From the NCBI RefSeq assembly GCF_030269605.1, contig NZ_BSTQ01000001.1, forward strand, positions 620,001 through 684,000: DNA of 64,000 nucleotides, in the 5' to 3' direction. A program made the translations under genes and the position numbers. The notes under the pieces are model-generated. The model had not been told where the DNA came from and made no database searches. It was given only the letters and a program-made list of their open reading frames with translations. Origin of the DNA: Lentzea sp. NBRC 105346. Lineage in GTDB: Bacteria; Actinomycetota; Actinomycetes; Mycobacteriales; Pseudonocardiaceae. Numbering within the stretch: the stretch's first letter is position 1; each line of letters begins with the position of its first letter. Shown here piece after piece: positions 5,979-36,059 of the stretch.

Positions 5979-6370
5979 TCAGTTCCCGAGCGTCAGGAAC
6001 GCGAACAGCTTGCCGTCCTCGGGCTCGTTCTTCAGCGTCACCTTGCCGCGGTGGGTGACCTCGATCTGATAGAACTTCGATCCCTTCGGGACGTCGGACA
6101 CCGGTATCGGGAACATGCATGAGGTGTTCTCGTAGGCGCTGACCTCGGCGCCGTCACGAATGTCCTGGTACCCGGAGTTCCCCCGGCAATGCCGAGCCGG
6201 TACGAAGGTCGATCGACGGACAGTGTCATGAACCCGCCGATCTCATAGCTGCCGGACGTCCTGATGACCACCACGGTCAGCACCGCGAGCAGCAGAACCG
6301 CCCCGACGGAACCGATCTTGATCCAGAACCGGCGCTGGAGTCGGTCGTCGTATCCCGACGCGGCGCGCAT
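5979..6370 (-). pseudogene. Small single-pass membrane protein gene with an apparent frameshift
   Basis: Read from the ATG at 6370, the frame gives a basic start, a transmembrane helix (VGAVLLLAVLTVVVI, residues 23-37) and a short external stretch ending MTLSVDR. Coding character then moves to another frame near 6205. That frame reads STFVPARHCRGNSGYQDI, then a 60-residue soluble tail ending AFLTLGN with stop at 5979. Restoring one base near 6205 would give one protein of about 130 aa. The break could be a real mutation or a sequencing error. No family is recognised. Confidence 0.55.
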
Positions 6371-30697: not shown

Positions 30698-31567
30698 TCA
30701 ACTACCGAAGAGATCGCCGAGGGTTTTCACCCGGTCCAACACATCATCAGCGAGAAACACCAGGTCATCGGGAGAGCGGCACTCCTCGACCTCGTCCCAC
30801 GTGATCGGCGCCGACACCGACGGCCGCTCCCGCGCCCGCAACGAGTACGGCGCCACCGTCGTCTTCGCCGGATTGTTCTGACTCCAGTCGATCAGCACCT
30901 TCCCGGTCCGCGCCGCCTTCGCCATCGTCGACACCACCTCCCGCGGCGTCTCCCGCGCCAGCCGCTGCGCGAGCTCCTTCGCATACGCCGACGTGTCCTT
31001 GCTCGGAGCCCGCGCGTACAACTGCATCCCCTTGGACCCCGACGTCTTCGCCCACGCGTCCACGCCGTCGTCCTCCAGCGCCGCCCGCAACCGCTGCGCC
31101 ACCCGGCAGCACTCCACCACCGTCGCCGGCGCACCCGGATCCAGGTCGAACACCAGCAGATCCGGATCCCGCCGCCCACCACGCGGCCCCGACGTCCACT
31201 GTGGAATATGCAGCTCCAGCGCCGCCAGATTCGCCAGCCACACCAACGTCGGCAAATCGTCGACCATCACGAAATCCGCGTAGTCGTTACCCCGGCTCGA
31301 ACCAGGAGTCTCGATCCGCACCGTCCGCACCCACTCCGGCGCATGCTGCGGAACGTTCTTCTCGAAGAACGACTCCCCACCCACCCCGTTCGGAAAACGC
31401 CGCAACGTCACCGGCCGATCCTTCAAGTGCGGCAACAACACCGGCGCGATCCGCCGGTAATAGTCGATCACCTCGGCCTTGGTGAACCCGTACTCCGGGT
31501 ACAGCTCCTTCTCCAGGTTCGTCAGCTTCAGCTGCCGATCCTCAACCCTCACCACCGTGGTCGACAA
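30698..31567 (-). CDS. ligD: NHEJ polymerase (LigD polymerase domain, AEP primase-polymerase)
   Basis: Encodes 289 aa, starting at a TTG at 31567 with GAGGAGG about 6 nt upstream. The start lies within the 3' end of the ligase gene (26-nt overlap). The metal-binding pair of the archaeo-eukaryotic primase fold is Asp141 and Asp143 in VFDLDPG. KLTNLEKELYPEYGFTKAEV and TSGSKGMQLYAR are also LigD-Pol hallmarks. The enzyme fills gaps and adds ribonucleotides at DNA ends held by Ku during non-homologous end joining. In mycobacteria this is the N-terminal domain of a single LigD; here it is a separate gene. Confidence 0.92.
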   Translation of the reverse strand: MSTTVVRVEDRQLKLTNLEKELYPEYGFTKAEVIDYYRRIAPVLLPHLKDRPVTLRRFPNGVGGESFFEKNVPQHAPEWVRTVRIETPGSSRGNDYADFVMVDDLPTLVWLANLAALELHIPQWTSGPRGGRRDPDLLVFDLDPGAPATVVECCRVAQRLRAALEDDGVDAWAKTSGSKGMQLYARAPSKDTSAYAKELAQRLARETPREVVSTMAKAARTGKVLIDWSQNNPAKTTVAPYSLRARERPSVSAPITWDEVEECRSPDDLVFLADDVLDRVKTLGDLFGS

Positions 31568-32999
31568 CGGCCACCTCCTCGGGCGTCTTGTCCGGCCGCA
31601 ACCCGCGCCACGCCGGGAACCGCATCCGCCCATCCGGCGTCCACTGCCGGAACACCACCTCGGCGACCAGCTCAGGACGCACCCAGCGCGCACCCTTCGC
31701 CCGCTCCCGCGGCACCTCGGTCACGAACGGCGACTTCTTCCGGTCCAGCGCACCCAGCCGCTCCGTCAGCACCCGCAGCTCCGCGTCACCGAACCCCGTC
31801 CCGACACTCCCGACGAACCGCAGCCCGCCACCCTCCGGGATACCCAGCAGTAGCGCCCCGATCACCCCCTGCCGCTTACCCTCACCCGGACGCCACCCGC
31901 CGATCACCACCTCCTGCGCCATCAGATCGGTGACCTTCCGCCAGTGCGGCGACCGCTGACCCGGCAGATACACCGAGTCCAGCCGCTTCGCCACCACCCC
32001 CTCGAGCCCCTGCTCCCGGCTCGCCGCCAGCACCGCCGCACCCTCACCCCGATACGACGGGGGAGTCAGCCAATGCGGACCGCGCAGCTCCAACCCCTCC
32101 AGCAGCTCCCGGCGCTTCGCGAACGGCACGTTCAGCATCGGCCGCCCATCCAGATGCAACAGGTCGAACACCAGCAACGTCACCGGCGTCGACTTCATCG
32201 CCCGCCGCGCCTGCGCCGCGTTCTGCACAACATGCATCCGCTGCTGCAACGCCGCGAAACTCGGCCGCCCACCCTGGATCGCGACGATCTCCCCGTCCAG
32301 CAACGCCTGCGTCGCCCCCAGTTGCTCACCCAGCCCCTGCAGCTCCGGATACGTCGCCGTCACGTCATTGCCCACCCGGCTGAACGCCTGCACCCGGCCA
32401 CCCTCGACCAGAAGGACCGCCCGCACCCCGTCCCACTTGAACTCATACGCCCACGCGTCGTCATCCGGCGGCAGGGGACCGGGGGAGGCCAGCATCGGCT
32501 TCAGCGACTCCGGCAGCTCCTGCCAGTCCGGCCGCGCCGCCTCGTGCCGGCGGCGCACCATCCAGTCCTTCGACCCGTGCTCCCGCTGGAAGAACACGAA
32601 CTCGCCCTGCGTCCGCTCACCGTGCAACACCACGTCGATCTCACGGTCGGACCACTTCACCGTCTCGTAGCGGCCGCGGTCCCAGATGAACATCCGCCCG
32701 CCGCCATACTCGCCCTTCGGGATCTCACCGTGAAAAGTCGCGTACTCCAGCGGGTGATCCTCGGTGTGCACGGCCAGCCGAATCGTCCCCGGCGTCGGCG
32801 GCAACCCCTTCGGCACCGCGAACGACACCAGCACCCCGTCCCGCTCCAGCCGCACATCCCAGTGCAACCGGCGAGCATGATGCTCCTGGATCACGAACGT
32901 GTCGTTGTTCCCCTTCGGCAACGCCGTGTCATCACCGGGGACAGGCTCCGGCGTCTTCGCCGGATCCCTCTTGCGGCGGTACTCGTCGAGCCCCGCCAT
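31542..32999 (-). CDS. ligD: ATP-dependent DNA ligase LigD (3'-phosphoesterase and ligase domains)
   Basis: Encodes 485 aa. Residues of about 30-150 form the 3'-phosphoesterase domain, with FVIQEHHARRLHWDVRLE, HTEDHPLEYATF and GEIPKGEYGGG. Residues of about 165-480 form the ligase domain, with nucleophile Lys188 in EFKWDGVRAVL, LLDGEIVA, GLEGVVAKR and WRKV. The enzyme trims 3' ends and seals breaks brought together by Ku. The ATG directly follows the ku stop (TAG-ATG), so ku and ligD form one transcript. The polymerase domain is carried by the next gene. Confidence 0.94.
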   Translation of the reverse strand: MAGLDEYRRKRDPAKTPEPVPGDDTALPKGNNDTFVIQEHHARRLHWDVRLERDGVLVSFAVPKGLPPTPGTIRLAVHTEDHPLEYATFHGEIPKGEYGGGRMFIWDRGRYETVKWSDREIDVVLHGERTQGEFVFFQREHGSKDWMVRRRHEAARPDWQELPESLKPMLASPGPLPPDDDAWAYEFKWDGVRAVLLVEGGRVQAFSRVGNDVTATYPELQGLGEQLGATQALLDGEIVAIQGGRPSFAALQQRMHVVQNAAQARRAMKSTPVTLLVFDLLHLDGRPMLNVPFAKRRELLEGLELRGPHWLTPPSYRGEGAAVLAASREQGLEGVVAKRLDSVYLPGQRSPHWRKVTDLMAQEVVIGGWRPGEGKRQGVIGALLLGIPEGGGLRFVGSVGTGFGDAELRVLTERLGALDRKKSPFVTEVPRERAKGARWVRPELVAEVVFRQWTPDGRMRFPAWRGLRPDKTPEEVAVVDHGGEG

Positions 33000-33809
33000 C
33001 TACGCGGAGCTGGCCTTTTTCTTCGTCGGCTTCTTCCGCCCGGCCTTCGCCTTCTCGACGCTGCGCTCCAACGCCGTCATCAGGTCGATGACCTCACCCT
33101 TGTCCTCGGTCTCCGGCTGCTCGGGCAACTCCGCACCCTCGGCCTTCGCCGCGATCACCTGCTCCAGCGCGTTGCGGTACTCGTCGTTGAACTCGGTCGG
33201 ATCGAAGTCCCCGGCCATCGACTCCACCAGCGACGTCGCCATCTTCAACTCCTGCGGCCGCACCTCGATGTCCTGGTCCAGGAAGTCGAACTCCGCCTTG
33301 CGGATCTCGTCCGGCCACAACATCGTGTGCAACACCAGCACGTCGTCCCGAGCCCGGATCGTCGCCAGCTTCTCCTTCTGCCGCATCGTGATCTTCACGA
33401 TCGCCAGCTGACCCGTCTTCGTCAGCGTGTCCCTGAGCAGCACATACGGCCGCGCCGCCGCCTTGTCCGGCTCCAGGTAGTACGTCGACTGGAAATAGAT
33501 CGGATCGATCTCCTCGGCGTCCACGAACTCCAGCACGTCGATCGCCCGGTCCGTCTTCACCGGCAGCTTCTCGAAGTCCTCGTCATCCATGATCACCATG
33601 CGGCCGTCGTCCAGCTCGTACCCCTTCGCGATGTCGGAGTACTCCACCTCGTTGCCGCACACCTGGCACACCCGCTTGTACCGGATGCGCCCGCCGTCCT
33701 CCCGGTGCACCTGATTGAACCGGAAATCGTGCTCCTCGACCGCCGAGTAGAGGCGCACGGCGATGGTCACCAGACCGAAGGAGATAGCCCCACGCCACAC
33801 GGATCTCAT
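33000..33809 (-). CDS. ku: DNA end-binding protein Ku
   Basis: Encodes 269 aa opening MRSVWRGAISFGLVTIAVRLYSA, the canonical start of bacterial Ku, with CQVCGNEVEYSDIAKGYEL downstream. The C-terminus is a short Lys-rich tail (KAGRKKPTKKK) that helps recruit LigD and bind DNA. Ku forms a homodimeric ring on double-strand ends and starts end joining. It leads the operon ku-ligD(PE-Lig)-ligD(Pol)-GrpB-SARP. A recombinase gene lies 80 bp upstream on the same strand. The 80-bp gap contains no obvious terminator. Confidence 0.95.
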   Translation of the reverse strand: MRSVWRGAISFGLVTIAVRLYSAVEEHDFRFNQVHREDGGRIRYKRVCQVCGNEVEYSDIAKGYELDDGRMVIMDDEDFEKLPVKTDRAIDVLEFVDAEEIDPIYFQSTYYLEPDKAAARPYVLLRDTLTKTGQLAIVKITMRQKEKLATIRARDDVLVLHTMLWPDEIRKAEFDFLDQDIEVRPQELKMATSLVESMAGDFDPTEFNDEYRNALEQVIAAKAEGAELPEQPETEDKGEVIDLMTALERSVEKAKAGRKKPTKKKASSA

Positions 33810-33889
33810 GACAACTGAGTACCCCTGAAATGGGATTTTCGCACTACAGTGTCACCCACATGGCCTAACGTTTTGGATCTGCCGGAAGC

Positions 33890-34915
33890 TCATGACTCCA
33901 TTGCGTTCAGCGCCCGGTACGTCCGGTTGGCCGCCACCGCCGCCCGCCGCTCCCGCGCCGTCGCCTCGATGTAGTTCTGCGACGTCGCCAGCGACGCGTG
34001 CCCCAGCAGCGCCATGATCTCGCTCGCCGAAGCACCGTCCTCGGCCAGCCGCGTCGCGAACGTGTGCCGCAACGCGTGCAGGTTCGCGCCCGTCGGCACC
34101 CGGTCGTGCAGCCCCGCCCAGCGGAAACACGACTTCACCAGGTACTCCAGCCCACCGCGCCCGATCGGCTCACCATGCCGGTCCCGCAGCAACGACGAGT
34201 CCCGGTCGAACCGCCCCTGCGGGAACCGCCGCCGGCACGACTCCAGGTACGCCGTGATGATGCGCTCCATCGGCGACTCGATCGGGATCGACCGGTCGCG
34301 GTTGCCCTTGCCCCGCACGTGCAGCCGCTGCTCACCCGGCCGGCCCACGATCGACGCCAGCGTCAACGTCCGCATCTCCGCGGATCGCAGCCCCGCGACC
34401 AGCCCCAGAGCGAGCACCAGGACGTCCCGCTCCGGCCACGGGTCCCGCCCCTTGCGGGCACCCTCCGCGGCCGCCGACAGCAGCTGCTCCGGGGTGTCCT
34501 CACCACGCAGCGGCTTCGGGACCAGGGGAGGGGTCTTCGGTCGCGCCACGGCGCCCATCGGGTTGCCCGCCAGCAGGTCCTCGGCCACGCAGAACGTCAG
34601 GAACTGGTTCCACGTCGACCACGCGCGCAGCACCGAGCTCTTCGCGTGGGTGTCGGCGAAGACGCCGAACGCCATGCGCAGGTTCGCGCCGGTCAGGTCT
34701 CTCACGTCGAGCTCTGTGACATCGACCTGGAGCGCGGAGGCGAGCAGGGCGTTCACCCCGGCCAGATCACGCTGGTAGGCCAGGGTCGTGTGCGGGGAGT
34801 CCTTCCTCGGTCGGCGGGCGAGGAAGAAGCTGTCCTGAGCGGCGAGCACTTGCACACTGATCTTGTACCGCACGGGTCTGACAGTTCCGGCACCGCACCC
34901 CTCGAAGTTGATCAT
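33890..34915 (-). CDS. Tyrosine recombinase (XerC/D-like integrase)
   Basis: Encodes 341 aa with the full catalytic set: Arg177 in AGLRSAEM, His280 and Arg283 in HALRHTFATR, His306 in LLGHASLATSQ, and nucleophile Tyr315. An N-terminal SAM-like core-binding domain spans about residues 30-140. The start is uncertain because no good ribosome site precedes the ATG at 34915. The length is close to Xer proteins but the N-terminus is about 20-30 residues longer. A dif-like site lies 286 bp upstream, with inverted repeats between. It could be a Xer-type enzyme, or the integrase of an element that uses dif. Confidence 0.9.
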   Translation of the reverse strand: MINFEGCGAGTVRPVRYKISVQVLAAQDSFFLARRPRKDSPHTTLAYQRDLAGVNALLASALQVDVTELDVRDLTGANLRMAFGVFADTHAKSSVLRAWSTWNQFLTFCVAEDLLAGNPMGAVARPKTPPLVPKPLRGEDTPEQLLSAAAEGARKGRDPWPERDVLVLALGLVAGLRSAEMRTLTLASIVGRPGEQRLHVRGKGNRDRSIPIESPMERIITAYLESCRRRFPQGRFDRDSSLLRDRHGEPIGRGGLEYLVKSCFRWAGLHDRVPTGANLHALRHTFATRLAEDGASASEIMALLGHASLATSQNYIEATARERRAAVAANRTYRALNAMES

Positions 34916-35110
34916 GGCGGGGCACAGGGGAGTTGTGCTGGATAATGGCGATTATGCATGAAACGTCCGTTTTGCCGGATTCTGAACCGGTGGGGATAAC
35001 GGCGGGATTTGCGGGGAATCCACGCGTAATAGACGGCACTTCCGTGCGTGTTCTAGACGACTCATCGATGCCGACCGCGCTCCGGCATCGCCGAGGGCTC
35101 AAGCGCACGG

Positions 35111-35158
35111 GCATCTGCAGGGGCCGCCGACCTGCCCGTCGGAGACGCCTGCAGATGC
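35111..35158. repeat. Inverted repeat with nested stem beside the dif-like site
   Basis: Perfect 11-bp arms GCATCTGCAGG (35111-35121) and CCTGCAGATGC (35148-35158). Between them lies a smaller stem, CCGAC (35127-35131) with GTCGG (35138-35142). Together they could form a branched hairpin or cruciform. It may be a recombinase accessory site, a terminator or an RNA structure. Confidence 0.6.
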
Positions 35159-35160
35159 TC

Positions 35161-35190
35161 TGCGAAGCCCCTTCTGGGACGATCTTCGCA
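35161..35190. repeat. Second inverted repeat beside the dif-like site
   Basis: TGCGAAG (35161-35167) and CTTCGCA (35184-35190) are perfect 7-bp arms with a 16-nt spacer, only 11 bp from the dif-like site. Function unknown. Confidence 0.5.
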
Positions 35191-35200
35191 GGTCACGTAT

Positions 35201-35228
35201 TACGCCGATAATCTACATTATGTCAAGT
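35201..35228 (+). other. dif: Putative chromosomal dif site
   Basis: A 28-bp sequence with the layout of bacterial dif. The XerC-side arm is TACGCCGATAA, the central six bases are TCTACA, and the XerD-side arm is TTATGTCAAGT. The XerD arm matches the Escherichia coli arm at 9 of 11 positions, and the ATAA-N6-TTAT core is exact. dif is where XerC and XerD resolve chromosome dimers at the replication terminus. Local strand composition also changes here. The site overlaps the longest possible reading frame of the next gene, whose true start is probably further in. Confidence 0.75.
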
Positions 35229-35264
35229 AACGTGGATCAGGACGCGTCAGGCACACTCCTCCAC

Positions 35265-36059
35265 ATGCGTTTCGCGATCTACGTCCCCTGTTATGGCGCC
35301 TACGGCGATCCCGCTGTGCTGAGCGAACTCGCGGTCACCGCCGAGGCGGCCGGCTGGGACGGCTTCTTCATGTGGGACCACGTCATCGGCGATCCGCTCG
35401 TCGCAGACCCCTGGGTCACCCTGGGCGCCATCGCCGCCCGGACCTCGACGATCACCCTCGGGCCGATGATCACGCCGGTGCCGCGGCGCCGGCCGTGGAA
35501 GCTGGCCCACGAGGCGAGCACGTTGCAGCGGTTGTCCGGCGGGCGGCTGATCCTCGGCGTCGGTATGGGTGTCCCCCGCGATTATTCGTCGTTCGGCGAA
35601 CCGCCGCAGAAGGGGCGGGCGAGCCGCCTCACCGAAGGCGTCGAGCTGGTCAAGAAGTTGTTGTCCGGCGAGGAGGTTCAGCACGACGGCGAGCACTTCC
35701 AGGCGTCCGGGGTGCGGTTCGCGCCGGTGGACGTGCCGGTCTGGGCCAGCGGGCTGTGGCCGCGCAAGGTGCCGTTCCTGGCGGCGAAGGACGCGGCGGG
35801 CCTGTTCCCCATCATGCGCGACGACGAGACCGGGTTCGCGGTGCCGACACCGGAGCAGGCGAAGCAGATGAAGGCCGAGTTCGTGGCCGCCGGCGGTCCC
35901 GCGGACGGTGATCTCGCGATCTGGGGTGGCGGGGCGCTGCCGGAGAAGGATCTCGTCGGTGCCTATGCCGAGGCGGGCGCGACGTGGTTGTTGCTGGACG
36001 GCTGGAAGTCCTCGGTGGACGAATTGCGCCGGAACATCGCGGCCGGTCCCCCGCGGTAA
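35265..36059 (+). CDS. LLM class flavin-dependent oxidoreductase
   Basis: Encodes 264 aa from the ATG at 35265 (MRFAIYVPCYG), which matches the usual start of the family. An upstream in-frame ATG at 35220 would place coding sequence across the dif-like site and adds no family similarity. AGWDGFFMWDHV, TSTITLGPMITPVPRR and SGGRLILGVGMG define the luciferase-like TIM barrel that uses F420 or FMN. It is shorter than most members (about 300 aa). Substrate unknown. The first rightward gene after the terminus-like site. Confidence 0.87.
   Translation: MRFAIYVPCYGAYGDPAVLSELAVTAEAAGWDGFFMWDHVIGDPLVADPWVTLGAIAARTSTITLGPMITPVPRRRPWKLAHEASTLQRLSGGRLILGVGMGVPRDYSSFGEPPQKGRASRLTEGVELVKKLLSGEEVQHDGEHFQASGVRFAPVDVPVWASGLWPRKVPFLAAKDAAGLFPIMRDDETGFAVPTPEQAKQMKAEFVAAGGPADGDLAIWGGGALPEKDLVGAYAEAGATWLLLDGWKSSVDELRRNIAAGPPR

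Follow-up and report, generated by a model that had tools for sequence, protein, structure and literature searches.

Organisation of the locus

The stretch of DNA analysed (the window) comprises 64,000 nucleotides from contig NZ_BSTQ01000001.1 (positions 620,001 to 684,000, forward strand) of the draft genome of Lentzea sp. NBRC 105346, a member of the Pseudonocardiaceae, and coordinates are those of the window unless stated otherwise. The following genes and features are found at the locus:

30698–31693, minus strand: LigD primase-polymerase domain protein, a neighbour
31542–32999, minus strand: LigD-type ATP-dependent DNA ligase with a 3'-phosphoesterase domain, a neighbour
32480–35571, no strand: interval in which the strand of the octamer CGGGGGA[CTG] changes, a polarity of the FtsK-orienting type
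33000–33809, minus strand: Ku-domain protein, adjoining the recombinase; a neighbour that is not assigned to the module proposed below
33890–34915, minus strand: third Xer-like tyrosine recombinase (341 aa, Pfam PF00589)
34935–34962, no strand: second Xer-type site, GTGCTGGATAATGGCGATTATGCATGAA, with an ATAA-N6-TTAT core like that of dif (core 34942–34955)
35201–35228, plus strand: dif, with an 11-bp XerC-side arm, a 6-nt centre and an 11-bp XerD-side arm
35265–36059, plus strand: luciferase-like monooxygenase gene on the XerD side of dif; a neighbour and not part of the module

The Ku, LigD ligase and LigD primase-polymerase genes (30698–33809) form a non-homologous end joining group that borders the recombinase and dif and is kept in Lentzea. 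Members of the Ku cluster (c2) and of the ligase cluster (c23) are also found in the vicinity of the recombinase in certain other genera.

The dif site

The 28-mer TACGCCGATAATCTACATTATGTCAAGT is located on the plus strand at 35201–35228, exactly where the initial annotation had placed a site with two Xer arms and a 6-nt centre, and its XerD-side arm shares 9 of 11 positions with the corresponding arm of E. coli, the same count as reported there. With up to three mismatches allowed it occurs once in the window, confirming the single occurrence claimed earlier, and not at all in 100 shuffles. A search of the whole genome (9.39 Mb, a draft of 67 contigs), which the same annotation had proposed, returned one copy and no better or additional dif match at up to three mismatches.

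When 150 genomes of the family were searched with the same tolerance, 51 contained one site each and the other 99 none that close, and the reversed 28-mer, used as a control, gave no matches in the 150 genomes. A stricter dif pattern matched at least 119 contigs, nearly all of them labelled Actinomycetota, and by hand count the site is identical at 25 of 28 positions to the proposed dif of Frankia alni, the sequence of which was taken from the available part of PMC3025954. The genome encodes a XerD (345.7 bits, above the model cut-off of 329.6), a XerC candidate (307.8 bits, below the model cut-off of 335.15) and an FtsK_gamma domain (84.7 bits, above the cut-off of 30.6).

An ATG at 35220, inside dif, opens a reading frame that is in frame with the luciferase-like gene. 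The likelier start of this gene is the ATG at 35265, which makes dif intergenic, and with that start the site would lie outside any well-supported gene start, as had been stated.

Judged by its sequence, 35201–35228 is a real actinobacterial dif and the presumed substrate of XerCD. It corresponds to the actinobacterial XerCD/dif system of Kono et al. 2011 (PMC3025954), as far as the available passages of that paper describe it, in the 11-6-11 layout, the single copy and the presence of genes for XerD and a XerC candidate. No difference from those passages was found for dif itself, and they contain neither a second site nor a third recombinase.

Two further elements were noticed close to dif. 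The sequence CAGGTC is situated a few bases to its left (35189–35194) and recurs before dif, with small changes, across several genera of Pseudonocardiaceae, including a locus without the recombinase (L138). A 21-bp inverted repeat (86%) is located at 35111–35158, between the second site and dif.

The replication terminus

In this draft genome dnaA is found on a contig other than that of dif, and the position of the terminus was therefore tested through octamer polarity and through the distance between dif and dnaA in relatives. The octamer survey covered the whole contig of 1.197 Mb (57 stretches together with the window) and all octamers present 120 times or more. Strand bias about dif was strongest for CGGGGGAG, with 120 of 121 copies directed toward dif (z 10.8, against 5.9 for the next best), and for the pooled octamers CGGGGGA[CTG] (197 copies, 18 exceptions) the strand reversal falls between 32480 and 35571. 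In 74 genomes of the family [ACT]GGGGGAG is directed toward dif in 154 cases versus 10 to the left of the second site (the palindrome described below) and in 116 versus 0 to the right of dif, and no copy was found between the two. An inward polarity that reverses at dif is the behaviour of FtsK-orienting sequences according to the accessible text of PMC13277299. Octamers of the CGGGGGAG type appear to behave in this manner and represent a putative FtsK motif.

A dnaA gene was present in all 28 relatives searched, and in the 25 that consist of a single contig and were used for the distances the dif locus lies at 0.448–0.499 of the circle from dnaA, the palindrome position standing in for dif in 11 of the 25; G085, G069 and G072 were left out, the last two having more than one contig.

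The single copy, the octamer reversal at the site and the position of the relatives' locus opposite dnaA all support the earlier placement of the replication terminus in this window. The shift in strand composition that had been cited with it is real in so far as GC skew changes sign locally near 35 kb, but it is weak as evidence for a terminus. The local change tracks gene orientation, with minus-strand genes on the left and plus-strand genes on the right. An extremum of cumulative GC skew at dif, suggested as a check, did not appear; the peak is situated at ~380 kb of the 1.197 Mb contig, ~275 kb to the left of dif, and because of this distance GC skew was rejected as a terminus marker.

A chance resemblance, with the 28-mer not being dif at all, is barely credible. 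The draft state of the genome, with dnaA on a separate contig, leaves some room for it, but it is opposed by the single copy, the conservation in the family, the octamer reversal and the antipodal position in relatives.

A second Xer-type site and a third recombinase

The ATAA-N6-TTAT core had been described as exact in dif, and it is, but a second such core at 34942–34955 went unnoticed, and with it both the second site (34935–34962) and the recombinase gene (33890–34915). Exactly two such cores are present in the window, one in each site, and none would be expected from shuffles. The second site is located 266 bp from dif on its XerC side, and the start of the recombinase gene is only 19 bp away from it. 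It forms a palindrome in which 8 of 12 arm positions are symmetric in the window and 12 of 12 in many relatives. In Lentzea the palindromes are imperfect (8 or 9 of 12), other genera have a perfect or near-perfect palindrome, such as TTCATGCATAAT-N4-ATTATGCATGAA, and the consensus of the arm is approximately TTSRTGSATAAY.

A counterpart of the second site was found in all six other Lentzea genomes fetched, 279–296 bp from dif, and a search of 297 genomes revealed it within three mismatches in 24 of 24 genomes of the genus, this one included. The own genome contains one palindrome, and among the matches listed the 76 family genomes with a palindrome have one each, except G059 and G127 with two.

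The product of the recombinase gene has the complete catalytic set R-K-H-R-H-Y (R177, K203, H280, R283, H306 and Y315), and in an alignment of 91 sequences these residues are invariant in every row that covers them (88–91 rows). Its scores fall below the equivalog cut-offs of the NCBIfam models for XerC (152.1 versus 335.15 bits) and XerD (123.1 versus 329.6 bits) as well as for XerS (51.6 versus 267 bits), and it is 31% identical to the XerC candidate and 29% identical to the XerD of the same genome. As classified by the curated cut-offs, the third recombinase is neither XerC nor XerD. In-frame stops were seen in two of 78 homologues in the family, one stop in G001 and two in G011, the assembly of the latter being 74% complete.

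Co-occurrence of gene and site

In the 150 family genomes the recombinase was scored at E≤1e-50 and the site by the exact pattern TGSATAA-N6-TTATSCA, which was composed after examples had been seen. The recombinase was found in 78 genomes and the exact palindrome in 76, all of them among the 78, while the other 72 have neither (Fisher p 3e-41, uncorrected for ancestry and with related genomes counted). In the two remaining recombinase-bearing genomes, G011 and G131, the palindrome is degenerate and located at -523 and -252, respectively, relative to dif. When these are counted, 22 genera have both traits throughout, 23 have neither and a single genus is mixed, gene and site being present in the same one of its genomes.

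A similar picture was obtained from the at least 119 contigs chosen by dif alone, of which 24 showed a second symmetric core (7–12 of 12 positions) within 1.5 kb of dif, and in 22 of these 24 loci the recombinase is encoded in the same stretch (within 8 kb). The two exceptions are Kibdelosporangium, whose recombinase lies where the stretch ends, ~2.3 kb from dif, and Rhodococcus SMB37, in which the sole match is a homologue of 41% identity located elsewhere. Loci lacking the second site gave only weak recombinase matches, of 37–45 bits in three cases. In a set of 14 named genomes the recombinase was detected in nine at E≤1e-40 and was absent at this threshold from Amycolatopsis tucumanensis, Pseudonocardia eucalypti, Labedaea, Mycolicibacterium frederiksbergense and Prescottella defluvii. 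Near dif, the loci of A. tucumanensis, Labedaea and Prescottella defluvii showed no second site, and neither did the stretches of P. eucalypti and M. frederiksbergense, which end within 330 bp on the XerC side.

A scan of 396 genomes across the phylum at E≤1e-60 returned the recombinase in the own genome and in G500 only, the palindrome of G500 being placed 35 bp from the gene; since this threshold misses the Rhodococcus homologues of 39–42% identity, the scan understates the range of the recombinase. A short palindrome pattern was present in 13 of the 396 genomes (the own genome, G500, G334 with three copies and ten others), and 11 of the 13, several of them AT-rich, have no recombinase at E≤1e-60, so that the pattern by itself cannot serve as a diagnostic beyond the family. 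Two palindromes of the same design were observed on contig C2 of G334, a genome of another family, at 107712 (in L279) and 124897, the first being perfect (12 of 12); the contig is perhaps a plasmid.

Covariation between recombinase residues and site arms was also analysed, using rows that carry the ATAA/TTAT core, with the row of G500 carrying the dif core. Associations were perfect only for a minority state of five or two rows and otherwise reached at most 0.44, and they were moderate once clades were considered. As the perfect associations are confined to minority states, covariation was set aside as evidence.

The palindrome is tied to dif and not to the gene

In all 74 family genomes with both sites in the fetched stretch, the palindrome is situated on the XerC side of dif at -256 to -1071 bp. 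It is found on this side in 78 of 78 recombinase-bearing genomes of the family and within 1.1 kb of dif in 77; in G001 the distance is ~-650 bp and in G017 it is 3.3 kb. Four Nocardiopsis genomes likewise have the palindrome on the XerC side (-271 to -573), and sites on the XerD side were identified in five Micromonospora (+390 to +447), G500 (+459), Allonocardiopsis (+1293) and Rhodococcus SMB37 (+417).

The recombinase gene does not share this constancy. In the clade of 49–55% identity the gene is remote from the site in all 24 genomes: in 12 the two share a contig but are separated by 120 kb or more (in G079, for instance, the gene is at 4999245 and the site at 4876395), and in the other 12 the gene is on another contig. 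In G023 the two are 531 kb apart. The proximity of palindrome and dif is retained in G023 and throughout the clade of 24 despite the distant gene. Two genomes with the gene on another, short contig (G010 and G061) were left out of this argument. The genes flanking the site differ between genera, according to a simple GC3-based gene caller. The palindrome belongs near dif rather than to the recombinase gene.

AT-rich palindromes are typical operators, and the site might accordingly be only the operator or promoter of an autoregulated recombinase gene, located near dif because the gene is. Its location shortly before the gene start in the window and in the six other Lentzea genomes, and upstream of the homologues on eight of nine plasmids (see below), agrees with such a role. 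Gene and site do separate in the 24 genomes of the clade and in G023, which makes this explanation quite improbable, and the ATAA-N6-TTAT core that the palindrome has in common with dif also speaks against it.

Between the palindrome and dif, [CT]GGGGGA[CTG] was observed in 36 of the 74 genomes, always directed toward dif and in 32 of the 36 located 48–61 bp from the core of the palindrome, and the looser GGGGGA points toward dif in 43 cases versus 2. The octamers in this interval are directed beyond the palindrome, at dif, and would not guide FtsK to the palindrome; the latter was therefore rejected as an FtsK target.

Relatives on plasmids and phages

Homologues of the recombinase with 30–39% identity were found on 60 plasmid records, 57 of them from Mycobacterium, Rhodococcus or Mycolicibacterium. 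Nine circular plasmids of Rhodococcus and Mycolicibacterium, with homologues of ~33–39% identity, were examined for sites. Seven carry a palindrome with the same core 34–873 bp upstream of the recombinase gene, the palindrome of an eighth (L424), at -40, deviates from the core in one base, and on L427 none was found within 8 kb of the gene. The plasmid recombinases resemble the chromosomal pair in that a site of this design precedes the gene in eight of nine cases; they differ in being plasmid-borne and in forming a separate clade in a quick tree, the deep joins of which are unsure because of long branches, and one of the nine has a dif-like site in addition. This is L419, a plasmid of M. rufum, in which GTGCTTGATAACGATCGTTATGTCAACT is located at 6008–6035, ~30 bp past the end of the recombinase gene, and which apparently combines a XerCD-type site with a palindrome; no dif-like site was found in the other eight plasmid stretches. 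Phage records gave four homologue matches at 28% identity, and a scan of IMG/VR, sensitive to close relatives only, returned no match to the recombinase.

The presence of homologues on plasmids could also point to a mobile element that integrates next to dif, with the recombinase as its integrase and the palindrome as its attachment site, and the review PMC5357621, in the passages available, names several mobile elements that use dif. We regard this as very unlikely because the second copy of the site is missing, one palindrome being present in the own genome and, among the matches listed, in nearly all others, so that there is no attL/attR pair, and because the same arrangement with syntenic flanks is shared by all six other Lentzea genomes fetched. 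The four phage matches at 28% and the empty IMG/VR scan for close relatives also count against it.

A putative second Xer module near dif

We consider it probable that the locus combines the XerCD/dif of the terminus (35201–35228) with a second, independent module of Xer recombinase and site (33890–34915 and 34935–34962) that would recombine sister copies. The dedicated tyrosine recombinase would bind, as a homo-oligomer, both mirror-image arms of its own site and exchange strands across the 6-nt centre between two sister copies. With one site per chromosome the natural substrate would be the pair of sister chromosomes, and the reaction may amount to dimer resolution or unlinking, presumably at division; the module might make some use of FtsK. 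Resolution of sisters by one enzyme is suggested by the one site per chromosome, the symmetric arms, the complete catalytic set and the plasmid counterparts. The module as a whole draws on the strict co-occurrence of gene and site in the family, the steady nearness of the palindrome to dif even with a distant gene, the invariant catalytic residues, the gene-and-site pairs of circular plasmids and the position of the locus opposite dnaA in 25 relatives. Counted against it were the imperfect palindromes of Lentzea, the site 3.3 kb from dif in G017, the placement of the site on the opposite, XerD side of dif in five Micromonospora, G500, Allonocardiopsis and Rhodococcus SMB37, the in-frame stops in two homologues and plasmid L427 with no palindrome within 8 kb of its gene. 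Further points against it are the octamers directed past the palindrome, the moderate covariation of residues and arms, the related genomes included in the co-occurrence count and the 11 genomes of the phylum scan that have the short pattern but no recombinase at E≤1e-60.

The second module would either recombine sister chromosomes or mark the terminus at a site kept near dif. The latter, in which the palindrome-bound recombinase serves chiefly as a landmark or roadblock (unloading SMC complexes, for instance) and not for recombination, is the main competing explanation, although an unlikely one. It is favoured by the fixed place near dif and the one copy in nearly all genomes with a palindrome, among the matches listed, and also by the role of XerD in SMC unloading in B. 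subtilis, as cited in the available part of PMC11898615. The conservation of all catalytic residues, which a pure roadblock would not need, argues against it, and the plasmid homologues with their sites fit resolution better.

To our knowledge bacterial chromosomes are generally described with one dif system, either XerCD or a single-recombinase alternative. The latter are represented by XerS/difSL of streptococci and lactococci and XerH/difH of epsilon-proteobacteria, described as alternatives to XerCD in the accessible passages of PMC5357621. Compared with what those passages give, the proposed module is similar in consisting of one recombinase with its own site, the gene often adjoining and the site present once per chromosome. 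It differs in that the own genome retains dif together with XerD and a XerC candidate, that the arms of the new site are near mirror images around the 6-nt centre and that the gene can be distant. The loxP site of Cre has symmetric arms. Cre/loxP of phage P1, for which dimer separation is cited in the available text of PMC8138268, thereby resembles the proposed module, one enzyme acting on symmetric arms, and Cre resolves a circular replicon; unlike Cre/loxP, the new module is Xer-type in sequence, has a dif-like core, is chromosomal and is placed near dif.

A third recombinase with its own site near dif has apparently not been described before. Among the open-access titles and openings of abstracts listed, none mentioned an additional palindrome close to dif or a third recombinase acting at the terminus of these bacteria, and neither is mentioned in the passages available of PMC3025954, PMC5357621, PMC8138268, PMC5993296, PMC11898615, PMC13277299 and PMC4210621.

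In a wider form, for which we see the balance as even, many Pseudonocardiaceae and members of Micromonospora, Nocardiopsis and Allonocardiopsis, perhaps also of Rhodococcus, would possess XerCD/dif together with a one-enzyme system related to plasmid resolution, whose mirror-symmetric site is selected to stay within about 1 kb of dif and which may act as a backup or stage-specific resolver, for example during hyphal septation. The system is defined by one gene and a site of 28 bp, and as gene and site co-occur strictly in the family their recognition is directly testable in E. coli. It would link a gene-and-site pair of plasmids to the chromosome terminus, and the conserved third recombinase with its second site suggests an extra component of terminus processing in these actinomycetes.
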